Source: Rosistilla ulvae (GTDB taxonomy: Bacteria; Planctomycetota; Planctomycetia; Pirellulales; Pirellulaceae). Taken from it: a stretch of DNA of 64,000 nt. Position 1 is the first letter of the stretch. Each line of letters opens with the position of its first letter. Location of the stretch: NCBI RefSeq assembly GCF_007741475.1, contig NZ_CP036261.1:2046001-2110000 (forward strand). Direction: 5' to 3'. Under the pieces are notes generated by a model. That model was given only the letters and a program-made list of their open reading frames with translations. It searched no databases and had not been told where the DNA came from. Positions 18,800 to 55,121 of this stretch are shown here, in pieces. Made by a program: the position numbers and the translations under genes.

Positions 18800-19186
18800 C
18801 TATTTATTTTCGCCTTGCTTTTGCTGCGTTGGGCGAACTCGCTTGTTGATATCGGTTTCCAATACGCCGAAGACGGCTTCGTGGCGGGCAACCGACATCT
18901 GCAATGCAGCCAACAGACGCTTTGCCGTGAAGAAGTTCACGATGATGCGTTGGTTGACGTTGATTGGGTCCTTGGGGACACCGATCGGTTGTGGGTTGAG
19001 GCCGAAATCGATGATCAGCTCTTCAGGCGATCCGGTTACGCGACAGAAGTTCGCATAACACGCTTGAGCGTGATCGTCGTTGACCTGAACTTGTACGGGT
19101 TGTGCTTGCGATTGAGCTGCTGGGGCTGCGGGTGCAGCAGCCGCTTGGGGCGCTTGCGCTTCGGGCGTTTCCGCGTCTTTGGTCAT
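18800..19186 (-). CDS. DUF3467 domain protein
   Basis: This 128-residue protein has an alanine/proline/glutamine-rich N-terminal 30 residues. A DUF3467 domain follows, recognisable by CYANFCRVTGSPEELIIDFGLN (split across about 43-64) and INVNQRIIVNFFTAKRLLAALQMSVARHE (about 75-103). The family is small, cytoplasmic and of unknown function. It appears to be a single-gene transcript with a hairpin downstream and a 402-nt leader region upstream. Confidence 0.88.
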   Translation of the reverse strand: MTKDAETPEAQAPQAAAAPAAPAAQSQAQPVQVQVNDDHAQACYANFCRVTGSPEELIIDFGLNPQPIGVPKDPINVNQRIIVNFFTAKRLLAALQMSVARHEAVFGVLETDINKRVRPTQQKQGENK

Positions 19187-19588: not shown

Positions 19589-21826
19589 TTAAAAATCAAA
19601 CTGGAAGGTCTTGTTTAAGAACCGATAAAAACGCCAACCGAGCGACTTAGGTGCTGCGTTGATCTTGGCGGTGCCGCGATATCCAACCCGCATTCCTTGG
19701 GAGCCTTCGGTCAACGGAACCCGCGCTTGATAGGAGGCGTTGATCGGTCGCATGTTCCCGGTTTCGGGATCGATTTGAGTGTCCAGATCGCCGCCCGATT
19801 GGCTCGACAAACTGGCCGGTGAATACTTCATTTCGGTTCGCGAAATTTGATCGATTTGGCCGGATAAAACCTGCAATCGCCGGGCGTCGGCCTTCAGTTC
19901 AACGCCATCACCCTCTTTGATCAATTGGATGTCTCCTTGATCGACGACCAGGACCGCTTCGATATGGCGTGGATCACCGATCAAGCAGATCAGACTTTCC
20001 TGTGTCATCAAGGCACCGATGTTTTCGGGTTCCAAGGGAGACCCCGACCATTCGGGCAGTCGACCATCCTGCGGGTCTTCGTCGGGCTTGTCGGGCGGTG
20101 GAATGATCACTCCGGAGATCGGCGCTTTGATCTCCAGTTGATCGATTTCATCCTCCGCCTTGCGACGCAATTCGGCGACCGAATCGAGCATCTTTTTCTG
20201 CGTGGTCGCCTGTCCGCTGAGCGATGAATCGTAGCGTTTCAGCCGTGACAAACTGGCCAACCGGACCCCCGCGGTACGCTCTTCGCCTTCCAGTTCGGAC
20301 AGCTTCAGCTCCAATTGCGAATTTGTTAGGACCGCCAGGGTATCCCCTTGTTCCACCGTGTCGCCCGGTTTGACCAACACGCGTTCGATCTGACCTGGTG
20401 TACCGGCATAAACCGATCGTGGGTCGGCGGGGCGGACTTCGAATGCACAATTAATGTGATACGGCAATGGCACGAAACAGAATGCCGCGATCGCGGCAGC
20501 GGCGACAGCAACGGTTGCGGCCAAACGAGAGCGTTTCACTTTTTGCATTCTCCCAGGAGTGCGAATGAATTTGATCGATTCCCAGATCGGTTTGGCAATC
20601 AAGCCACCAAAGCCAATGATTGCGAACAAGCGACCGAGGATCCGCAAACCGTACGGCTCGAGCACTTGGTTCAAGAACATTACGATTCCGATCACCACGA
20701 CCCAGCGATAGATCACCGATGCAACGGTGAACATGCCAAACAGGAACCGGTTCCGTTGCGGTAGAAACGGATTCTCCTGAAGTTCCAAACCGAGGCAGGT
20801 TTCTTGAAACCAACGCTTCAAGGTTTCGGTGCTCTTTTGGCGTAGGTTGGGAATCTCCAACCAATCCATCAGGATGTAATAGCCATCGAACCGCAGCAGC
20901 GGGTTGGCGTTGAAGACGACTGTGCTGACCGAACAGATAAACATCGTCGCCAGGAAGGTGAAATTGAGCAGGCCTGGTTCGCTGAACCACCACAACCACG
21001 TGGCGAAGGAGGCGAGAATCAATTCGACATACATTCCGCCAGCCCCAATCCAGACTCGCTTCCATTTATTGGGAAGCATCCAGGAATCGGAGACGTTGCA
21101 ATACAGGCAGGGTGTAAAGACCAGCAGCATGAATCCTAGTTCATGGCATTCGCCACCAAACCGCTTACAGGAGAGGCCGTGGCCAAATTCGTGGCAGATC
21201 TTGACGATCGCCATCAACAATCCCATGTAGAGCCAGTTTTCGGCGGCAAAAAATTCTTGGAACGTCGGCAGTTTCGACCGGAACAACTCAAAGTTCATCC
21301 CGACCAGAACCAGCGTGATCAATCCAAAGCCGACGAAAAAGATCAGTGCTGGAACGGTAAACACCCATCCTAAAACGGGGTTCATTCGACGCAGAATCCC
21401 CTCGGGGTCGATCCCCCGAAACCGAATCGCAAAGATGTTCGCTAGTTTCCCCAGCAGTTCCTTCTTCTTCTTTTCGCTGCCACGTTTCCGCAATTGGCCA
21501 CCTTGGCCGGGCGAATTGGAGATCACCAATCCGCTGCGGTGCAGCATGCCGAGAAACTGTTGGAGGTCGCCAAAGGTGATTTTCTGTGGGGCAAATTCCT
21601 GTTCAAACCCATCTTTGATCTGCTGCAGACTGACGTGCCCATCGAGCATCTGCAGGATGAAATACTCCTCGTCGTGGAACCGGTAATACTGCAGCCCCAC
21701 AGGTTCCTTGACGACCCAATAACTGGTCCCCTGATACATGTGACGGCTGCTCGTCAAATCAGGACGCTTCCGAACCGAAAGCGGTCGTGATGAGCTGCTG
21801 ATGAGGCTGTCGGCGAGCGTTGTCAT
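19589..21826 (-). CDS. PqqD-like / M50 site-2-protease / HlyD fusion protein
   Basis: This 745-residue protein fuses three modules. Residues about 30-105 form a PqqD-like winged-helix domain (RFHDEEYFILQMLDGHVSLQQI). Residues about 150-430 are a multi-helix M50-type metalloprotease core with zinc motif HEFGH (212-216) and NANPLLRFDGYY, the usual second metal-site region. Residues about 440-745 are a HlyD/biotinyl-lipoyl membrane-fusion domain (GTPGQIERVLVKPGDTVEQGD, ITFAP-like KAPISGVI) ending in an aromatic tail. It is the last gene of a three-gene minus-strand set, 84 nt after a HlyD gene. Known M50-MFP fusions occur in peptide maturation and export loci; the substrate here is unknown. It could also act purely as a scaffold. 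Confidence 0.85.
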   Translation of the reverse strand: MTTLADSLISSSSRPLSVRKRPDLTSSRHMYQGTSYWVVKEPVGLQYYRFHDEEYFILQMLDGHVSLQQIKDGFEQEFAPQKITFGDLQQFLGMLHRSGLVISNSPGQGGQLRKRGSEKKKKELLGKLANIFAIRFRGIDPEGILRRMNPVLGWVFTVPALIFFVGFGLITLVLVGMNFELFRSKLPTFQEFFAAENWLYMGLLMAIVKICHEFGHGLSCKRFGGECHELGFMLLVFTPCLYCNVSDSWMLPNKWKRVWIGAGGMYVELILASFATWLWWFSEPGLLNFTFLATMFICSVSTVVFNANPLLRFDGYYILMDWLEIPNLRQKSTETLKRWFQETCLGLELQENPFLPQRNRFLFGMFTVASVIYRWVVVIGIVMFLNQVLEPYGLRILGRLFAIIGFGGLIAKPIWESIKFIRTPGRMQKVKRSRLAATVAVAAAAIAAFCFVPLPYHINCAFEVRPADPRSVYAGTPGQIERVLVKPGDTVEQGDTLAVLTNSQLELKLSELEGEERTAGVRLASLSRLKRYDSSLSGQATTQKKMLDSVAELRRKAEDEIDQLEIKAPISGVIIPPPDKPDEDPQDGRLPEWSGSPLEPENIGALMTQESLICLIGDPRHIEAVLVVDQGDIQLIKEGDGVELKADARRLQVLSGQIDQISRTEMKYSPASLSSQSGGDLDTQIDPETGNMRPINASYQARVPLTEGSQGMRVGYRGTAKINAAPKSLGWRFYRFLNKTFQFDF

Positions 21827-21910
21827 CGAATCTCAATCTTACGTGAGCCGACGGAGCGAAGGTCGGCGGAATGGGGTGTTGGGCATCCGAGCAACAAACG
21901 TGGGTAACAA

Positions 21911-22840
21911 TTAGTTCAGGTTCTGGCCTGCAACGGGCAAGAGCTGCATTTCGGCGGGCATCCCGGGGCTGACGAGATAACGGCCCCCTTCGACTTTGTT
22001 GACGATCTTTGCCCAAACACGGTAGGTGTTATCGCTTTCCAGGATCGGACTGACGTATTCCAGTCGACTTTGGAAGTCGACATAGCGATTTCCGCCAACG
22101 TGAACGCGAATCGAAACGGGAGCACCGATCACGATGCGTTCCGGAGCGTCGAGCCCTGCGACATCCCCTTCGACCTTGATTTCGTCGATTCGCACGACGC
22201 GGACGATCGGAGTGCCCGCCTGAACCCATTCACCATCTTTGCCATAACGCTTGGCGATGATCCCGTCGAACGTTGCCGCGATTTCGCGTCGCTTGATCTC
22301 ATGTTCGGCCAATTGGCGTTCCGCGGTTTTGGCAGCAAACGTCGCCTCGGCCACCTGTTGTTCGTTTCTCGCCATTTCGATCGCTAGTTTCGATCGTTCG
22401 GCTTCGAGGACTTCACGTCGCATGTCCCAGTAGGGCATCGCTTGTTTCTTGTGCAGTTCTTCCGCTGACTTCGCTTCAGCCCATTCGTATTCCATCGATT
22501 TTTCGGCGGCGCGAATGTTGACGTCGTTTTCGGCTTGCAACCGGGCCTGTTCCTCTTCGGCCTGCTTTAGCACCAGGTTCAGCTTGGCTTGTTCGGGATC
22601 GATCATCGCGATCACCTGGCCGGCCTTGACCATCTTTCCCTCTTCGACGATGCCGTTGTCGAGGAATAGGATGCCATCGGCGCCGGCGGAGATGCGATTG
22701 TCATCGATCGCTTCGACCAAGCTGTCGCGAACGGGGATCGGTTCGGACGCCGATTGCGCCCAGCCGAGGTTGTTCGACGCGCCCAGCGAAACAGCCAGGG
22801 CGGCGATGGCGAAGGAGTTGTACTTGGAGAAGGGATTCAT
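21911..22840 (-). CDS. HlyD-family membrane-fusion protein (periplasmic adaptor)
   Basis: From the ATG at 22840 this is a 309-residue protein; a GTG at 22849 is an alternative, but GGTGA sits five nt before the ATG. A Sec signal (FAIAALAVSLGASNNLGWA) precedes a lipoyl-like half (GADGILFLDNGIVEEGKMVKAGQVIAMID, about 52-80). A long alpha-helical hairpin follows (about 85-185, EEEQARLQAENDVNIRAAEK...), then the second lipoyl half ATFDGIIAKRYGKDGEWVQAG and a beta-barrel domain. It is a free periplasmic adaptor, middle gene of the set, and no pump gene accompanies it. Confidence 0.88.
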   Translation of the reverse strand: MNPFSKYNSFAIAALAVSLGASNNLGWAQSASEPIPVRDSLVEAIDDNRISAGADGILFLDNGIVEEGKMVKAGQVIAMIDPEQAKLNLVLKQAEEEQARLQAENDVNIRAAEKSMEYEWAEAKSAEELHKKQAMPYWDMRREVLEAERSKLAIEMARNEQQVAEATFAAKTAERQLAEHEIKRREIAATFDGIIAKRYGKDGEWVQAGTPIVRVVRIDEIKVEGDVAGLDAPERIVIGAPVSIRVHVGGNRYVDFQSRLEYVSPILESDNTYRVWAKIVNKVEGGRYLVSPGMPAEMQLLPVAGQNLN

Positions 22841-22968
22841 TCGATTCACCGTAGCAGTTCAGATAAGTGGGCGATTGACGATCGCTGCGGGCCGATTGTC
22901 GATCGCGAATTCAGGGGTGGAACGGAGTCACATGGAAGCGGAGTGTTGAAAACGATTCGCTCGTGAGA

Positions 22969-25023
22969 TCAAAACCATTTAAAGAGGATGGTTTGCAACC
23001 ATTCGTAGGCACCATGGAACCAGACGAAACCGGCGGCACGTCGGCCGCAATAAACGTCGGCGGTCACCTTGGCACCGGGACGCGGTTGCAGTGTGGTCAG
23101 ATCGATCGGTTCGGCTCGCAGGGTGACCACGTTTCCTTCTTCTTTATCGGGTTCGGCCCGCAATTCCCGCGACGTCAGCAACGCTTTCATCTCGTGGTCC
23201 GGATCGGTCGCCAAGATGAAGGTGACCGGCAGCGGTTCGCCATCGGCGGCTACCACCGCGCGATCCAAGTGGTCCATCTTCTTCTCGGGCATCTTTAATT
23301 TCAGATGCATCGGTTTGGATAGATCGGCGACCGTCAACAGCACTTGGCCGGTGACGACGGGGCGTGAGCGGAGAGTCTTTTCGACGTCCCAGGTAACGAT
23401 CTGGCCATCGATCGGAGCGGTGATCGTCAGTTGTGCCAAGCGTTCGTCGAGCAGTTGTTGTTTCCGCAGCAAGCTGTCCAGTTCGGTTCGCTTCTCCGCC
23501 TCTTCTCCCTTCAGGCGGGTCTCTTCCTGTTCTTCCCCCGTGCGTGAATTGCGGACGTCATCGAGTTCGTAACGAATGCGGGTCAGCGAGGCTTGGGCGG
23601 TCCGAATGCGTCCCATCGTGTCCGCATAATCCTCCTCGACTTGGCGATTTCGCAGCTTGACCAACAGCTGCCCCTTGGTGACGTTCATGCCATGCACCGC
23701 GGCGACCTCGATGATCTCGCCATCGATTGGCGCGAAGACCTCTTGCCGCACTGTCGGTTGCAGCGTTCCAGGGCAATCGAGCGTGAAGTCCAAGGGGACG
23801 AAGATCATCCCCAGAATTGCAGCGGTTAGAAGCGCCACGACGGCAATTGTTTTGGGAAGAGTTCGCGCCTTGATGATCCATGCCGCTTTGCCCAACGTTC
23901 GCCAGACAGGCATCAGGAACAAATTGTTGTGCTGCATCGAATTGGCGATCGCGCGGGTGCCATGTTCGTAGACCAGATTGACCCGGCTGCGAAAAACTTC
24001 ATCGGGCAGATTGCTCTCGATCTGTTCGACGATCAACGCGCCGATCACGTCGCCCCGGTGGGCATTGTCGCGTTCGATCTCACCCACGTTTTTGTTCAAA
24101 GCGTCGTCGTTGCCGCGACTTGGTTCGCGCAGCGGGAGCACGGCGATATGTCGTCCGTACGATTGATCGACATAATCCTCGACAGCTTCTTCGATCTGTG
24201 GGGGCAGGTCTTCGGTCGACCCATCGTGCCATAGCGGTTCGCCGGCAGCCACAACGCGAGTTGCCAGATTGTTCAACGAAGAGACGATGTTGGAACGGTT
24301 TTCGATCGTGTCCTGCCCGCTGATCGCCAGCACCTTGCATTTGCGACCACGCATGATCGCAACGCTGACGCGATCGCACCCGATCATCCGACGTCCTTCG
24401 TTGGCGATCACATAGGCTGTCTCTTTCAGGTCCAACGATTCATGGGCCGCCCGCGCAAAACCATCGGCTTGATGCCACAGCACTTGGCGATCGGAGAACA
24501 GACGCAGCTGTTGCCCCTTCAGCCAATCGCCAGCGAGTTCGGACATCTGTCCCAAAAATCGCAGGTAACCCTTTTGTGTTTCGGGGGGGGAATCGGGACG
24601 CTGAAAGACTTCGATCAAGCCTTCGACTTGGTGCTCGCTGCGCAGCGGAGATAGGACCAATAAAAAGCGGGTCGGATTGCCTTCGGCATCGCCATCGGTG
24701 GTTCCCGAATAGGGCGGAACCAACAATTGCTGCCCTGCGCCGGCTACGCGTCGCAACAAGCGGTTGTGCTTGTTCGCGTCGTCGGAGTCCTCTTCCAGCA
24801 GCGTCTGGCTGGTGTTGATTTGATACTCCAGCTTCAATTGGCGGTCCTCGTCGAACAACCAAATGGCGCCCCCCACTGCGGCCAGCGCGGAGATCACGCG
24901 CTGAAGCAATTGAGGGTAATACTCCTCGGCCGGAGCTCCGCTTTTGGACAGCGCCGCGATCTCGTTGACCAAGCCGCGAATCTGATTTTTGGTTTGTTCA
25001 ACCGTTTCTTGATTGACAGCCAT
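22969..25023 (-). CDS. Double-GAF sensor fused to a HlyD membrane-fusion domain
   Basis: This 684-residue protein has two GAF-like domains (about 35-170 with AAVGGAIWLFDEDRQLKLEY, and about 195-375 with AYVIANEGRRMIGCDRVSVAIMRG). One membrane helix follows (about 415-437, TIAVVALLTAAILGMIFVP), then a HlyD module with VFAPIDGEIIEVAAVHGMNVTKGQ. A coiled-coil hairpin (about 490-570, EEQEETRLKGEEAEKRTEL) and ITAPIDGQIVTWDVEKTL complete it. GAF domains normally bind small molecules or mediate dimerisation, so this is an adaptor with a cytoplasmic sensing part. It is the first gene of the minus-strand set. Its aromatic C-terminus resembles that of the M50-HlyD protein. Confidence 0.86.
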   Translation of the reverse strand: MAVNQETVEQTKNQIRGLVNEIAALSKSGAPAEEYYPQLLQRVISALAAVGGAIWLFDEDRQLKLEYQINTSQTLLEEDSDDANKHNRLLRRVAGAGQQLLVPPYSGTTDGDAEGNPTRFLLVLSPLRSEHQVEGLIEVFQRPDSPPETQKGYLRFLGQMSELAGDWLKGQQLRLFSDRQVLWHQADGFARAAHESLDLKETAYVIANEGRRMIGCDRVSVAIMRGRKCKVLAISGQDTIENRSNIVSSLNNLATRVVAAGEPLWHDGSTEDLPPQIEEAVEDYVDQSYGRHIAVLPLREPSRGNDDALNKNVGEIERDNAHRGDVIGALIVEQIESNLPDEVFRSRVNLVYEHGTRAIANSMQHNNLFLMPVWRTLGKAAWIIKARTLPKTIAVVALLTAAILGMIFVPLDFTLDCPGTLQPTVRQEVFAPIDGEIIEVAAVHGMNVTKGQLLVKLRNRQVEEDYADTMGRIRTAQASLTRIRYELDDVRNSRTGEEQEETRLKGEEAEKRTELDSLLRKQQLLDERLAQLTITAPIDGQIVTWDVEKTLRSRPVVTGQVLLTVADLSKPMHLKLKMPEKKMDHLDRAVVAADGEPLPVTFILATDPDHEMKALLTSRELRAEPDKEEGNVVTLRAEPIDLTTLQPRPGAKVTADVYCGRRAAGFVWFHGAYEWLQTILFKWF

Positions 25024-25586
25024 ATTCTGCTGTGTTCCGGAACGAGGAAGAGAGTCTATTTCAAACTTTCACCGACCCTAGCGAGCTGAGTGCTTGCTTC
25101 AGACAACTTCACCCTATCGCAAACTTGTTGGATCTCCACCGCCAAACGTTGGGCATGTAGATTTCTTAAATCTTCGATGCGGAAATTGTCGAATGTTAGG
25201 ATTCTTGCCGGGTGTTGCTTTAGTGCAACGCTGGGATCTTCGACCCCAAAGCTGCCTGAAGAGTTCCCCAGCTAGAATAACCTATCGGCAGCAGCTTATA
25301 CTAAATGTATAAGCAGTCTGTTGGATTGCAACCGTTTTGCCGAAATTGCGGGGAACCAAGCGACGTCGATTTCCGTCTGATTCGCACGGTTCGATCGGCC
25401 TTCCCTCGTCTGGATGGTCTCGGGATTTCAGGCGTTATGTCCGTTGTGACCGTGTCGGTTTATCAAGGTTTTTCGCAATTCATCTGCCGCCGGTCGGCGA
25501 GTTGTCGAGTTTGCCAGCGCCGTCAATCAAAGTGTGCGTCACCAGTTCGGACAAACATCGCTTTACGGATCGCTTGGACGTAGTGC
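25024..25586. promoter_or_regulatory. Divergent intergenic region between the GAF-HlyD set and the GAF gene
   Basis: These 563 nt separate two divergent start codons and must contain promoters for both. GCTTATAC (25294-25301) and GTATAAGC (25307-25314) form a 21-bp dyad with a 5-nt AT centre, a good operator candidate. A 10-bp palindrome GTTCCGGAAC lies at 25034-25043, just before the GAF-HlyD start. An open frame at 25305-25583 (92 codons, several CxxC pairs) ends just before the GAF gene, but I could not support it as a gene. Confidence 0.5.
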
Positions 25587-26474
25587 ATGAACGAAGCAAC
25601 ACTCGTAGAAGCTTTCCGCGGGATCCCGCGGCGCGATTCGGTTCGCGTGGGAGTTCAAGTAGGCAAGCTGCGCAAGGTTTGCCTGGGGGACCAGGCGTTG
25701 GAAGCCTTTTTTCCCGAGTCGCTAGACATTTTGTTGCGATTGTTCAACGCGTCGGCTGGAGCATTTTGGTTTCGCCCGTTTAACGCCGCTACGTTGTTCC
25801 CCGTCTCTCGCGTCGGGTTTGAACAGTTGGCGCTGTCGAACTCCTGTCTGTCGGATTGTGAGCAGATGGTTCGCGGTGCCTGGCAATCGCTGGGGCCGCA
25901 GGTCCGTCCGATCGATCGGCCGTTTGTGTCTTTGATCGGTCCGATTCGCGATGGATCGACCGCGATCGGGGCGTTGCAGTTGGTTGCGGAGTGCGGGGAC
26001 GAGGATCCGCAACAGCCAAACGTCGCTTATGCGAAGGCCCTGTCGGCCGCTCTGTCGTTGATCCAACCAGCGATCCGGCGTCGCATGCAAGTTGGTGAGA
26101 CGTCGATTCGCGAAGCGACCGACCGTTTGGCTCAGCTAGCGGATCAATTGACCGGGCTGCAGCGATCGATGCGGCATGCGATCGATCAGACCCTGGGGCA
26201 GTTGCGCGGTGCTTCGTTTGGATCGTTGACGGCCAATCAGCGATTTACTCGTGTGATCCAAGACCTGCTCGAAACGCACGGGCTCCGCGTGGTTTGTCCG
26301 GAGTGTGGTGCCGCAGCGATTCTCCGCTGTTCCAAGAATCCTCGCGCTCGCGATGGAGTGTTTGTCTTCGACCATAGCCTGGCAGGCCGACGGACGTTTC
26401 ACGGTGGATACACCACGCTGCCGGTGCTTCAGGTTGTCAGTAAACCGCCGCGGCGCGGTAAAGCGATACGTTGA
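25587..26474 (+). CDS. GAF-like domain protein with C-terminal cysteine/basic domain
   Basis: This 295-residue soluble protein has a GAF-like region (about 45-155: LLRLFNASAGAFWFRPFNAATLFPV, FVSLIGPIRDGSTAIGALQLVAE) similar in pattern to the first GAF domain of the divergent GAF-HlyD protein. A helical linker (about 160-220) follows. A C-terminal domain has VVCPECGAAAILRCSKNPRARDG and a GGYTTLPVLQVVSKPPRRGK tail. One CxxC plus one further Cys suggests a small metal site or structural motif. No catalytic residues are recognised. It diverges from the membrane-fusion set and may be its regulator or cytoplasmic partner. Confidence 0.7.
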   Translation: MNEATLVEAFRGIPRRDSVRVGVQVGKLRKVCLGDQALEAFFPESLDILLRLFNASAGAFWFRPFNAATLFPVSRVGFEQLALSNSCLSDCEQMVRGAWQSLGPQVRPIDRPFVSLIGPIRDGSTAIGALQLVAECGDEDPQQPNVAYAKALSAALSLIQPAIRRRMQVGETSIREATDRLAQLADQLTGLQRSMRHAIDQTLGQLRGASFGSLTANQRFTRVIQDLLETHGLRVVCPECGAAAILRCSKNPRARDGVFVFDHSLAGRRTFHGGYTTLPVLQVVSKPPRRGKAIR

Positions 26475-26485
26475 TCGGCTTTGGT

Positions 26486-27328
26486 CTACGCGGAACTGAG
26501 GCCCGAGCGAACGTCGTCGGAGCCGGGGCCTCCGTTGAACGAGTCTGAATCGTTCGCCCAGACACACATTTCAAAACAGTCGGCCGCGCCGACCATCGTT
26601 GCAAAGGCAACGTCGGCGGCGTCGCGACCGGTGCCGATGCGAACGAATCCGCCAACGGGTGCCATCCGCGTGGCATCGAACAGAAACCAACGGCCATCCA
26701 AATACGCCTCGAAGAATCCGTGGAAGTCGGGTGGTTGGAGGTGGACGGCATAGCCGGCGACGTACCTTGCGGGAATCCCCATCGCGCGGCAAAGGCTGAT
26801 CGCAACGTGGGCGTAATCGCGGCAAACTCCAGTCCGCTGCAGCAGGACGTCGCAAGCCGTCGTCGTTGGTCCGGTGCTTCCGGGTGTGTAGGTCAGATAG
26901 TCGAAGGTCCAGTTACAGATCGCCGTGACGCGCGAGTAGCCGGGCAACAGCGAACCGAACTCTTCCATCGCAAATCGATTCAGTTTGTCCGACTCGCAGT
27001 AGCGACTCGGGTTCAAAAAAATTAACACCTCCGGCGGCAGGCTGCTGTAACTCGATTCGTTCACGTTGTTTGAATCGACTGCCGCGGATTGTAATTCGAC
27101 CTCCGCCTGATACCCGATTTTCAGCTGTCCCGGTTGGCCGATCAGGCGAAACAGCCGGTTTCCGTGGGGGCCAATTTGGCACTGTTCCAGCTGTTGGAAT
27201 GGGGTGACGTCGATCTGTTCGTTGCGGATCTGTTGGTAGTCGTTCATCGCCGCCGAGATGTTCAACAGAAAGCTGGTCGGGGTGAAAATGTTGTATTGCA
27301 GCTGGCAGCCCACAAAAATAATGCTCAT
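26486..27328 (-). CDS. Transglutaminase-like cysteine protease family protein
   Basis: This 280-residue protein has the transglutaminase/protease-like catalytic triad: Cys169 in TGVCRDYAH, His203 in DFHGFFEAYL and Asp218 in FDATR. The N-terminal region (IFVGCQLQYNIFTPTSFLLN) is the beta-rich domain found before such cores in bacterial homologues (often beside DUF403/circularly-permuted ATP-grasp genes, absent here). No signal peptide is evident, so a cytoplasmic site is likely. It is convergent with the GAF gene, with an 11-nt gap. A proteolytic or amide-bond role is plausible, but the substrate is unknown. Confidence 0.88.
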   Translation of the reverse strand: MSIIFVGCQLQYNIFTPTSFLLNISAAMNDYQQIRNEQIDVTPFQQLEQCQIGPHGNRLFRLIGQPGQLKIGYQAEVELQSAAVDSNNVNESSYSSLPPEVLIFLNPSRYCESDKLNRFAMEEFGSLLPGYSRVTAICNWTFDYLTYTPGSTGPTTTACDVLLQRTGVCRDYAHVAISLCRAMGIPARYVAGYAVHLQPPDFHGFFEAYLDGRWFLFDATRMAPVGGFVRIGTGRDAADVAFATMVGAADCFEMCVWANDSDSFNGGPGSDDVRSGLSSA

Positions 27329-54174: not shown

Positions 54175-55121
54175 ACGCCGGTTACGACGGTCCGATGATC
54201 GAGGTCCGCGACCTCTGTCGCAGCTTTGGCGATACGCAAGCTGTCGACCACGTTTCGTTTGAAGTCCCTCGTGGCAGCGTGTTCGGCTATATCGGTCCCA
54301 ATGGAGCCGGCAAGACGACCAGCATGCGAATCCTCGCGACGCTCGAACTGCCCACCTCCGGCGATGCCTTGGTCGAAGGGCTTTCCAGCGTGAATGATCC
54401 TGATCGCGTGCGCGGTCGGTTGGGATTTATGCCCGACAGCTTCGGCACCTACGGCGACACCAACTGCATCGAATACCTCGACTTCTTCGCGCGATCTTAT
54501 GGGCTGGTCGGTCGCGATCGAACGCGGCGGCTGCGGTGGGTGATGGAGTTCACCGGGCTGCGTCCCCTGGCGACCAAGCCGATGCGCGGGCTCAGCAAGG
54601 GGATGCGGCAGCGGCTGTGTCTGGGCCGTGCGTTGATTCACGACCCCGCGGTGTTGGTATTGGACGAACCGGCGGCGGGGCTGGATCCGCGAGCCCGAAT
54701 CGAACTACGGCAGATCATTCGCGCATTGGCGGCCGATGGCAAGACGATCCTGATCAGCAGCCATATCCTGACCGAACTGGCGGAGATGTGCGACCGAATC
54801 GGGATCATCGAGCGAGGCAAGTTGTTGGCGACCGGAAGCGTTGATGACATTCGCCGCACGCTGCAACCGACGCGTGAGCTTTTGGTTCGCGTGGCATCCG
54901 ACGACGCCTGGGCTCTCGAGTTGCTGCGCTCCGATTCTCGGGCAACCAACGTTCGCGTGGTTGATGGAGCGATTCGGTTTTCGATCGCAGGAGACGAGGT
55001 GGATCAGGTGGCGATTTTGCATGCGATGTGCGACGCGCGGATCGAAGTTTTGGAATACACGCCGCAGCATAACTCCCTCGAAGACGTGTTCCTTCAAGTG
55101 ACCAAGGGGCAGGTGCAATGA
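54171..55121 (+). CDS. ABC transporter ATP-binding protein
   Basis: This 316-residue ATPase has Walker A GPNGAGKTTS (about 42-51), signature LSKGMRQRLCLGRAL (about 142-156), Walker B VLVLDEPAAGLDP and the H-loop SSHILTE. The C-terminal 80 residues form the extra domain typical of NatA/CcmA-type exporters. It is coupled by ATGA overlaps to the upstream large protein (54171-54174) and downstream permease (55118-55121). Direction is probably export or extraction, as in gliding/ABC-2 systems. Confidence 0.95.
   Translation: MNAGYDGPMIEVRDLCRSFGDTQAVDHVSFEVPRGSVFGYIGPNGAGKTTSMRILATLELPTSGDALVEGLSSVNDPDRVRGRLGFMPDSFGTYGDTNCIEYLDFFARSYGLVGRDRTRRLRWVMEFTGLRPLATKPMRGLSKGMRQRLCLGRALIHDPAVLVLDEPAAGLDPRARIELRQIIRALAADGKTILISSHILTELAEMCDRIGIIERGKLLATGSVDDIRRTLQPTRELLVRVASDDAWALELLRSDSRATNVRVVDGAIRFSIAGDEVDQVAILHAMCDARIEVLEYTPQHNSLEDVFLQVTKGQVQ

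Follow-up and report, generated by a model that had tools for sequence, protein, structure and literature searches.

A conserved protease-adaptor gene trio of Rosistilla ulvae as the candidate core of an exporter for giant LEPR-XLL proteins

Introduction

What would a bacterium do with three membrane-fusion proteins encoded in a row, one joined to an intramembrane protease and one to sensory domains, with no pump beside them? This question is raised by a locus of the planctomycete Rosistilla ulvae (Pirellulaceae), which we analyzed within a stretch of 64,000 nucleotides of its complete 7.48 Mb genome (NZ_CP036261.1, positions 2,046,001 to 2,110,000; hereafter the window). The trio lies at 2.066 Mb and reads leftward on the minus strand as an adaptor with two GAF domains, a transmembrane segment and a HlyD domain (the GAF adaptor), a free HlyD adaptor, and a fusion of PqqD-like, M50 and HlyD domains (the M50 protein), with a DUF3467 gene after it. 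An earlier note, made from the sequence alone, had interpreted these genes as a leader-dependent apparatus for processing and export.

A gene set of this kind has been described before. In the main text of Kamneva, Poudel and Ward (2015; PMC4452313), M50/HlyD, HlyD and GAF/HlyD proteins are reported to be encoded together with a secondary SecA_DEAD protein, at a locus conserved in several phyla including Planctomycetes and Proteobacteria; OEP genes are present in some of these loci, and the partners are sometimes encoded elsewhere. The locus was proposed to mediate Type I-like secretion with SecA as the ATPase, and its broader role was called "completely unknown". According to the same article, Methylobacterium extorquens AM1 carries the operon as META1p2399-2402. 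The window has the same M50/HlyD, HlyD and GAF/HlyD genes together; it differs from that locus in lacking an adjacent SecA-like or OEP gene and in carrying a divergent gene with a GAF-like region and a CPECG motif. The terms DUF3467, LEPR, giant and PqqD do not occur in the main text of that article as searched. An earlier description of these three genes as a characterized system would have counted against the note, and this is partly the case: the gene set had been published, as conserved but uncharacterized, and the window is a member of it. The new part is a candidate cargo.

We propose, with a probability of about 0.68, that the window encodes those core parts of an exporter that sit in the inner membrane and the periplasm; the exporter would be SecA-assisted, coupled to TolC and dedicated to very large proteins with an N-terminal LEPR-XLL leader.

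Results

An open reading frame (ORF) check of the window recovered the frames of the module where they had been placed, and Pfam and NCBIfam searches confirmed three adaptor genes in a row with M50 and GAF domains. The M50 protein (19589..21826, minus strand, 745 aa) matches Peptidase_M50 (E=4e-8) and HlyD_3 (E=7e-7). The free adaptor (21911..22849, minus strand, 312 aa, of HlyD/RND type), whose N-terminus resembles a signal peptide when judged by eye without a predictor, matches HlyD_3 (E=9e-14), and the GAF adaptor (22969..25023, minus strand, 684 aa) matches GAF (E=1e-6) and HlyD_3 (E=2e-8), with a second GAF-type match, GAF_3, at E=4e-4, below the cut-off of that model. A hydropathy scan found a single strong hydrophobic segment in the GAF adaptor, at residues 393-411, and five in the M50 protein. 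The aromatic C-terminal tails reported for two of the three adaptors are those of the M50 protein and the GAF adaptor; the free adaptor has none.

Among 60 genomes sampled from the genus, family and order, the R. ulvae genome included, 59 have a strong M50 match (E<=1e-100). In the sole relative without one (G023), short SecA-like and LEPR-XLL matches are missing as well. Of 60 orthologous loci, 52 keep the three genes on a single strand with their order unchanged; the eight others, some of them on short contigs, comprise two with the M50 gene and GAF adaptor only and six with the M50 gene only. Clustering of the ORFs of 61 loci, that is the 60 orthologous loci plus the window, placed the free adaptor and the GAF adaptor in 54 each, DUF3467 in 25 and a short SecA-like protein in 12. 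A BBP7-type protein and the divergent GAF-like gene were each found in 10, and five loci have an ORF that was identified by eye as ABC-like. The conservation of the trio is more than chance would give. The constant presence of an ABC (ATP-binding cassette) locus or a loss of the zinc-binding residues, either of which would have spoken against the earlier interpretation, is not what we observe: the ABC-like ORF is confined to those five loci, and the HExxH residues H212, E213 and H216, with the downstream zinc ligand D314, are invariant in all 40 aligned orthologues. The M50 domain keeps the zinc site of site-2 proteases, and may be active.

The association with a cargo was followed with the LEPR-XLL domain (NF012209, LEPR-8K), a 24-position model and the tag on the proposed cargo, searched at E<=0.05 in the 60 relatives. 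Of the 150 matches listed, 15 have a listed M50 or short-SecA match no more than 10 kb away, where at most 1.9 are expected; of the 90 short-SecA matches listed, 30 have a listed M50 match no more than 8 kb away, where at most 0.7 are expected. These proximity tests used the 150 M50, 90 short-SecA and 150 LEPR matches listed, took distances between the lower ends of matches, and excluded SecA frames of more than 1000 aa and one 663-aa row at a contig edge. A pattern search among ORFs of at least 300 aa found the motif in 6 of 49 at the 12 SecA-bearing loci and in 1 of 199 at the others (P=3e-4). In three of these 12 loci (L074, L082 and L085) the giant is cut by the end of the stretch, so the motif could not appear; in L083 and L092 no motif-bearing neighbor was seen although the stretch continues.

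Across the phylum, in 148 genomes from 73 families (counted by the highest label seen), M50 (E<=1e-30) is present in 43 and LEPR-XLL in 23; 21 genomes have both, 2 have LEPR-XLL alone, 22 have M50 alone and 103 have neither (Fisher P=1e-11). Expressed otherwise, 21 of the 23 genomes with LEPR-XLL have M50, as do 22 of the 125 without LEPR-XLL, and all 12 LEPR-positive families include an M50-positive genome. LEPR-XLL matches in planctomycetes both cluster near M50 and SecA genes and co-occur with M50. Many LEPR-XLL frames are long. In R. ulvae itself NF012209 exceeds its cut-off at three places, and one LEPR-XLL frame, of 9,529 codons, begins beside a paralogous locus (L021) with OEP, adaptor, GAF adaptor and M50 genes.

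Relatives of the module on plasmids also neighbor giant genes. A protein search of PLSDB with one paralogue matched 77 records, of which 14, picked for variety and not at random, were fetched; the PLSDB gene tables are incomplete, and BLASTP scans with the module proteins were run on all 14 loci as well. Thirteen adjoin a very large frame or an annotated giant gene, and the fourteenth begins at the start of its record. Ten of the giants are annotated whole, at 9.9 to 48.7 kb, and the other three are frames that exceed 2,500 codons and run off the end of the stretch or record. A SecA-like gene is found in eight of the 14 loci (split in two ORFs in one), DUF3467 in six and a TolC-like gene in seven, including that of L220, which the BLASTP scan missed and which was counted from its annotation. 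In several alphaproteobacteria the order is giant, DUF3467, GAF-type adaptor, PqqD/M50, SecA-like, adaptor and TolC, in some with parts missing. In Azospirillum, Indioceanicola, Variovorax, Burkholderia and Escherichia coli the giant stands with TolC, adaptors and M50, and neither a SecA-like gene nor DUF3467 is present in the stretch; the Thalassospira locus has DUF3467 and no SecA-like gene in the stretch. The N-terminus was read for 10 of the 13 giants. All are basic and carry within about 60 residues a LEPR-XLL-like motif, L/F/M/I-E-x-R-x-hydrophobic-hydrophobic, which in the Alisedimentitalea giant lies upstream of the annotated start and in the Burkholderia giant was recognized by eye, having been missed by the search pattern.

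Two of these plasmids have further features. The SecA-less E. coli module (L232, NZ_CP081687.1) consists of a giant Ig-like gene, TolC, two adaptors and PqqD/M50; its M50 gene occurs in 24 of 5,426 complete genomes, with 21 of its 25 places on plasmids. In Variovorax (L233, CP063167.1) the module accompanies a 48.7-kb tandem-95 giant gene, and type II secretion genes follow directly.

Scans of the window gave no SecA, OEP/TolC or resistance-nodulation-division (RND) match (major facilitator superfamily, or MFS, pumps were not searched), and the single ABC ATPase match lies at about 54246-54674, about 29 kb from the trio. The absence of an adjacent pump or outer-membrane factor noted earlier therefore holds for the window, within the families searched; it does not hold for the system, where many relatives have SecA-like and TolC-like genes beside them. 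By a reading of the matches listed, 57 of the 60 relatives have a short SecA-like gene (none in G023, G045 or G046); in 12 of the 61 loci such a gene stands next upstream of the GAF adaptor and runs in the same direction. Pfam confirmed one trio-adjacent SecA-like gene with its BBP7 neighbor, and BBP7 at another locus also. Among nine short SecA-like proteins inspected with sequence patterns, all have the Walker A motif G-x-GKT and six have a DExD motif.

The R. ulvae genome holds nine M50 copies, that of the window included, and within 8 kb a TolC-like gene accompanies five of them and a short SecA-like gene three. At the same distance from an M50 gene are 3 of its 5 short SecA genes (0.10 expected) and 5 of its 19 OEP genes, as merged by hand from the matches (0.36 expected). 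Its best match to the trio-adjacent SecA-like genes of relatives, assigned without a tree, lies at 3.12 Mb, about 1.05 Mb from the window, and is transcribed divergently from a BBP7 gene (Pfam E=5e-81), an arrangement shared with those relatives. The parts are scattered in this genome, with the core at 2.066 Mb, the SecA-like and BBP7 genes at 3.12 Mb and TolC-like and LEPR-XLL genes elsewhere. L036 (7457-11174) holds such a pair, a BBP7 barrel gene with a short SecA-like gene transcribed away from it, which is the pair found beside the trio in relatives. The fifth of the short SecA-like genes of R. ulvae (L037, 8507-10264; 585 aa) has no recognized module partner among its neighbors. At L029 (6760-10216 and 10279-12870), also in R. 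ulvae, a GAF adaptor and a shorter ORF before it occur without an M50 gene, and the divergent ORF has an OEP match.

The N-terminal region of the M50 protein had been called PqqD-like. The window protein matches PqqD at E=0.011 and 16.5 bits, under the Pfam cut-off of 23.4. PqqD-type domains have a winged-helix topology of three strands followed by three helices, and in the predicted structure (mean predicted local distance difference test score, pLDDT, 83.7) residues 25-103 form three strands and then three helices, the same order. In a Foldseek search with this model the 50 best of 386 rows were all adaptors, and its adaptor part matches MacA, ZneB, EmrA and MexA.

The NCBIfam models for the daptide (NF041824) and YydH/LiaK (NF058609) metalloproteases match all 40 M50 orthologues at E<=0.001. 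The window protein scores 169.2 bits with the former and 54 bits with the latter, under their curated cut-offs of 300 and 225. By these sequence matches the M50 part is homologous to leader and maturation proteases of ribosomally synthesized and post-translationally modified peptides (RiPPs). It differs from these proteases in its fusion to a HlyD adaptor and in the linkage of its family to giant proteins.

Neighboring genes

The DUF3467 gene (18800..19186, minus strand, 128 aa; Pfam E=1e-24) was overlooked in the earlier note. It sits upstream of the GAF adaptor in other planctomycetes and adjoins the giant gene in the six plasmid loci that carry it, and its product is probably a member of the system. 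The idea that it is a SecB-like chaperone found no support from its structural model (mean pLDDT 78.6), for which Foldseek gave no match at E<=0.001.

The divergent gene (25587..26474, plus strand) had been described as having a GAF-like region. Pfam gave no GAF match and BLASTP no significant match for it, though profile-profile alignment with hhalign upheld the description: 169 columns align with the GAF adaptors (probability 98.5%, E=3e-15), which relates its N-terminal domain to the first GAF region of the adaptor. Its C-terminal CPECG...C motif is invariant in six aligned sequences, that of the window included. We regard this gene as a candidate lineage-specific accessory. Just past it, at 26486-27328 on the minus strand, is a transglutaminase-like gene, present among the 60 orthologous loci only in the two of the same genus.

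Discussion

The homology of the M50 part to RiPP proteases, together with the leader-like tag of the giants, suggests recognition and cutting of a leader, and the adaptors plus the TolC-like proteins suggest a conduit across the envelope. We infer from this how translocation, cleavage, leader binding, adaptor stoichiometry and sensing may fit together. The PqqD-like domain (or DUF3467) would bind the basic LEPR-XLL leader of the unfolded cargo, the short SecA-like ATPase would drive the cargo across the inner membrane, and the M50 domain would cleave the leader within the membrane or at its surface. Together the three adaptors would serve as a conduit through the periplasm to a TolC-like channel in the outer membrane, with the GAF domains tuning the process. 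The copy in the window would serve LEPR-XLL cargoes in trans. The earlier interpretation is partly supported, its leader-dependent export by the link to the giant LEPR-XLL proteins; the mixed adaptor ring and the gating by a GAF ligand that it envisaged would be hypothetical additions to this picture.

Several observations weigh against this proposal. The main weakness of the argument is that most LEPR-XLL genes are apart from the genes of the system: 135 of the 150 matches listed have no listed system gene within 10 kb, and a pattern search of the window, among ORFs of at least 250 aa, found no LEPR-XLL-like ORF. One machine serving many cargoes would fit with this distribution. The motif pattern used at the SecA-bearing loci was widened after two of its six positives had been seen, and the narrower pattern leaves four. 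The genomes compared are related and shared ancestry was left uncorrected, so the P values overstate independence. There are 22 M50-positive genomes without a LEPR-XLL match at E<=0.05, of which one (G019) is accounted for by a below-threshold variant of the motif, and two LEPR-positive genomes without M50 at E<=1e-30, of which one (G153) itself falls short of the family cut-off. Matches to PqqD are weak across the orthologues, reaching E<=0.01 in 9 of 40, and no SecA-like gene is seen within the stretch at 6 of the 14 plasmid loci (Thalassospira, Azospirillum, Indioceanicola, Variovorax, Burkholderia and E. coli). Finally, an ABC ATPase match (L023, 12710-13603) stands directly downstream of one of the nine M50 genes. 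We considered an ABC pump as a general feature and rejected it; the genome has 73 ABC matches, and among the fetched M50 loci only L023 and L028 have one.

Of the alternatives, the exporter as outlined in the main text of the 2015 article (PMC4452313), Type I-like, with a SecA-like motor, an M50 protein that may be the membrane pore and an unspecified cargo, is unlikely; its gene set is identical to that of our proposal. The Walker A and DExD motifs of the SecA-like proteins agree with such a motor, and the several membrane segments of the M50 part with such a pore. The invariant zinc ligands and catalytic glutamate would be needless in a mere pore, however, and SecYEG could equally provide one. 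The LEPR-XLL cargo is compatible with this Type I-like exporter.

It is improbable that the genes form a RiPP-like system for the maturation and export of small peptides with leaders. Such a system would account for the PqqD-like N-terminus and for the matches of all 40 orthologues to the daptide and YydH/LiaK models, but the daptide score is far under its cut-off and giant genes adjoin the plasmid relatives. Small RiPP cargoes were sought and rejected: by eye, among ORFs of at least 70 aa (shorter ORFs not being surveyed), no RiPP-enzyme cluster is common to five or more loci. We give still less credence to site-2-protease signaling, in which the GAF domains sense a ligand and the M50 domain cuts a membrane-bound regulator. 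GAF domains are indeed present, and M50 family members elsewhere cut such regulators; yet no regulator cluster, by eye, is common to five or more loci among the neighbors, and the adaptors and the SecA-like and TolC-like neighbors would be left unexplained. Equally remote is the notion of stray adaptors for ordinary RND or ABC pumps encoded elsewhere, for which the many RND and ABC genes of the genome and the structural matches of the adaptor part speak, and against which stand the conserved fusion to M50 and GAF domains, the trio order kept in 52 of 60 loci, and the linkage to SecA-like and LEPR-XLL genes.

The proposed SecA-assisted exporter resembles Type I secretion systems in its HlyD-type adaptors, in the TolC-like channel of relatives and in a very large, repetitive candidate cargo. 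It differs from them in having no recurrent ABC transporter, a candidate signal at the N-terminus, and additional M50, GAF, DUF3467 and SecA-like parts. It may be that giant LEPR-XLL proteins have a separate and widespread secretion system, defined by an N-terminal leader, a PqqD-like reader in a protease-adaptor fusion, a short SecA motor in place of the ABC transporter and exit through TolC, which extends from planctomycetes to plasmids of alpha-, beta- and gammaproteobacteria in SecA-bearing and SecA-less versions; we hold the case for this broader claim to be evenly balanced.

The secretion-like locus had no known cargo in the main text of the 2015 report (PMC4452313), and a literature search of low sensitivity found no exporter for LEPR-XLL proteins, some of which exceed 10,000 residues, in the portions of the sources covered, PMC10868602 included. 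Once the locus is linked with the LEPR-XLL giants, deleting one gene at a time can put both questions to the test. The link also suggests that a RiPP-like way of recognizing leaders was adapted for exporting huge surface proteins. The broader secretion system, if it exists, would be how some of the longest proteins of bacteria leave the cell.

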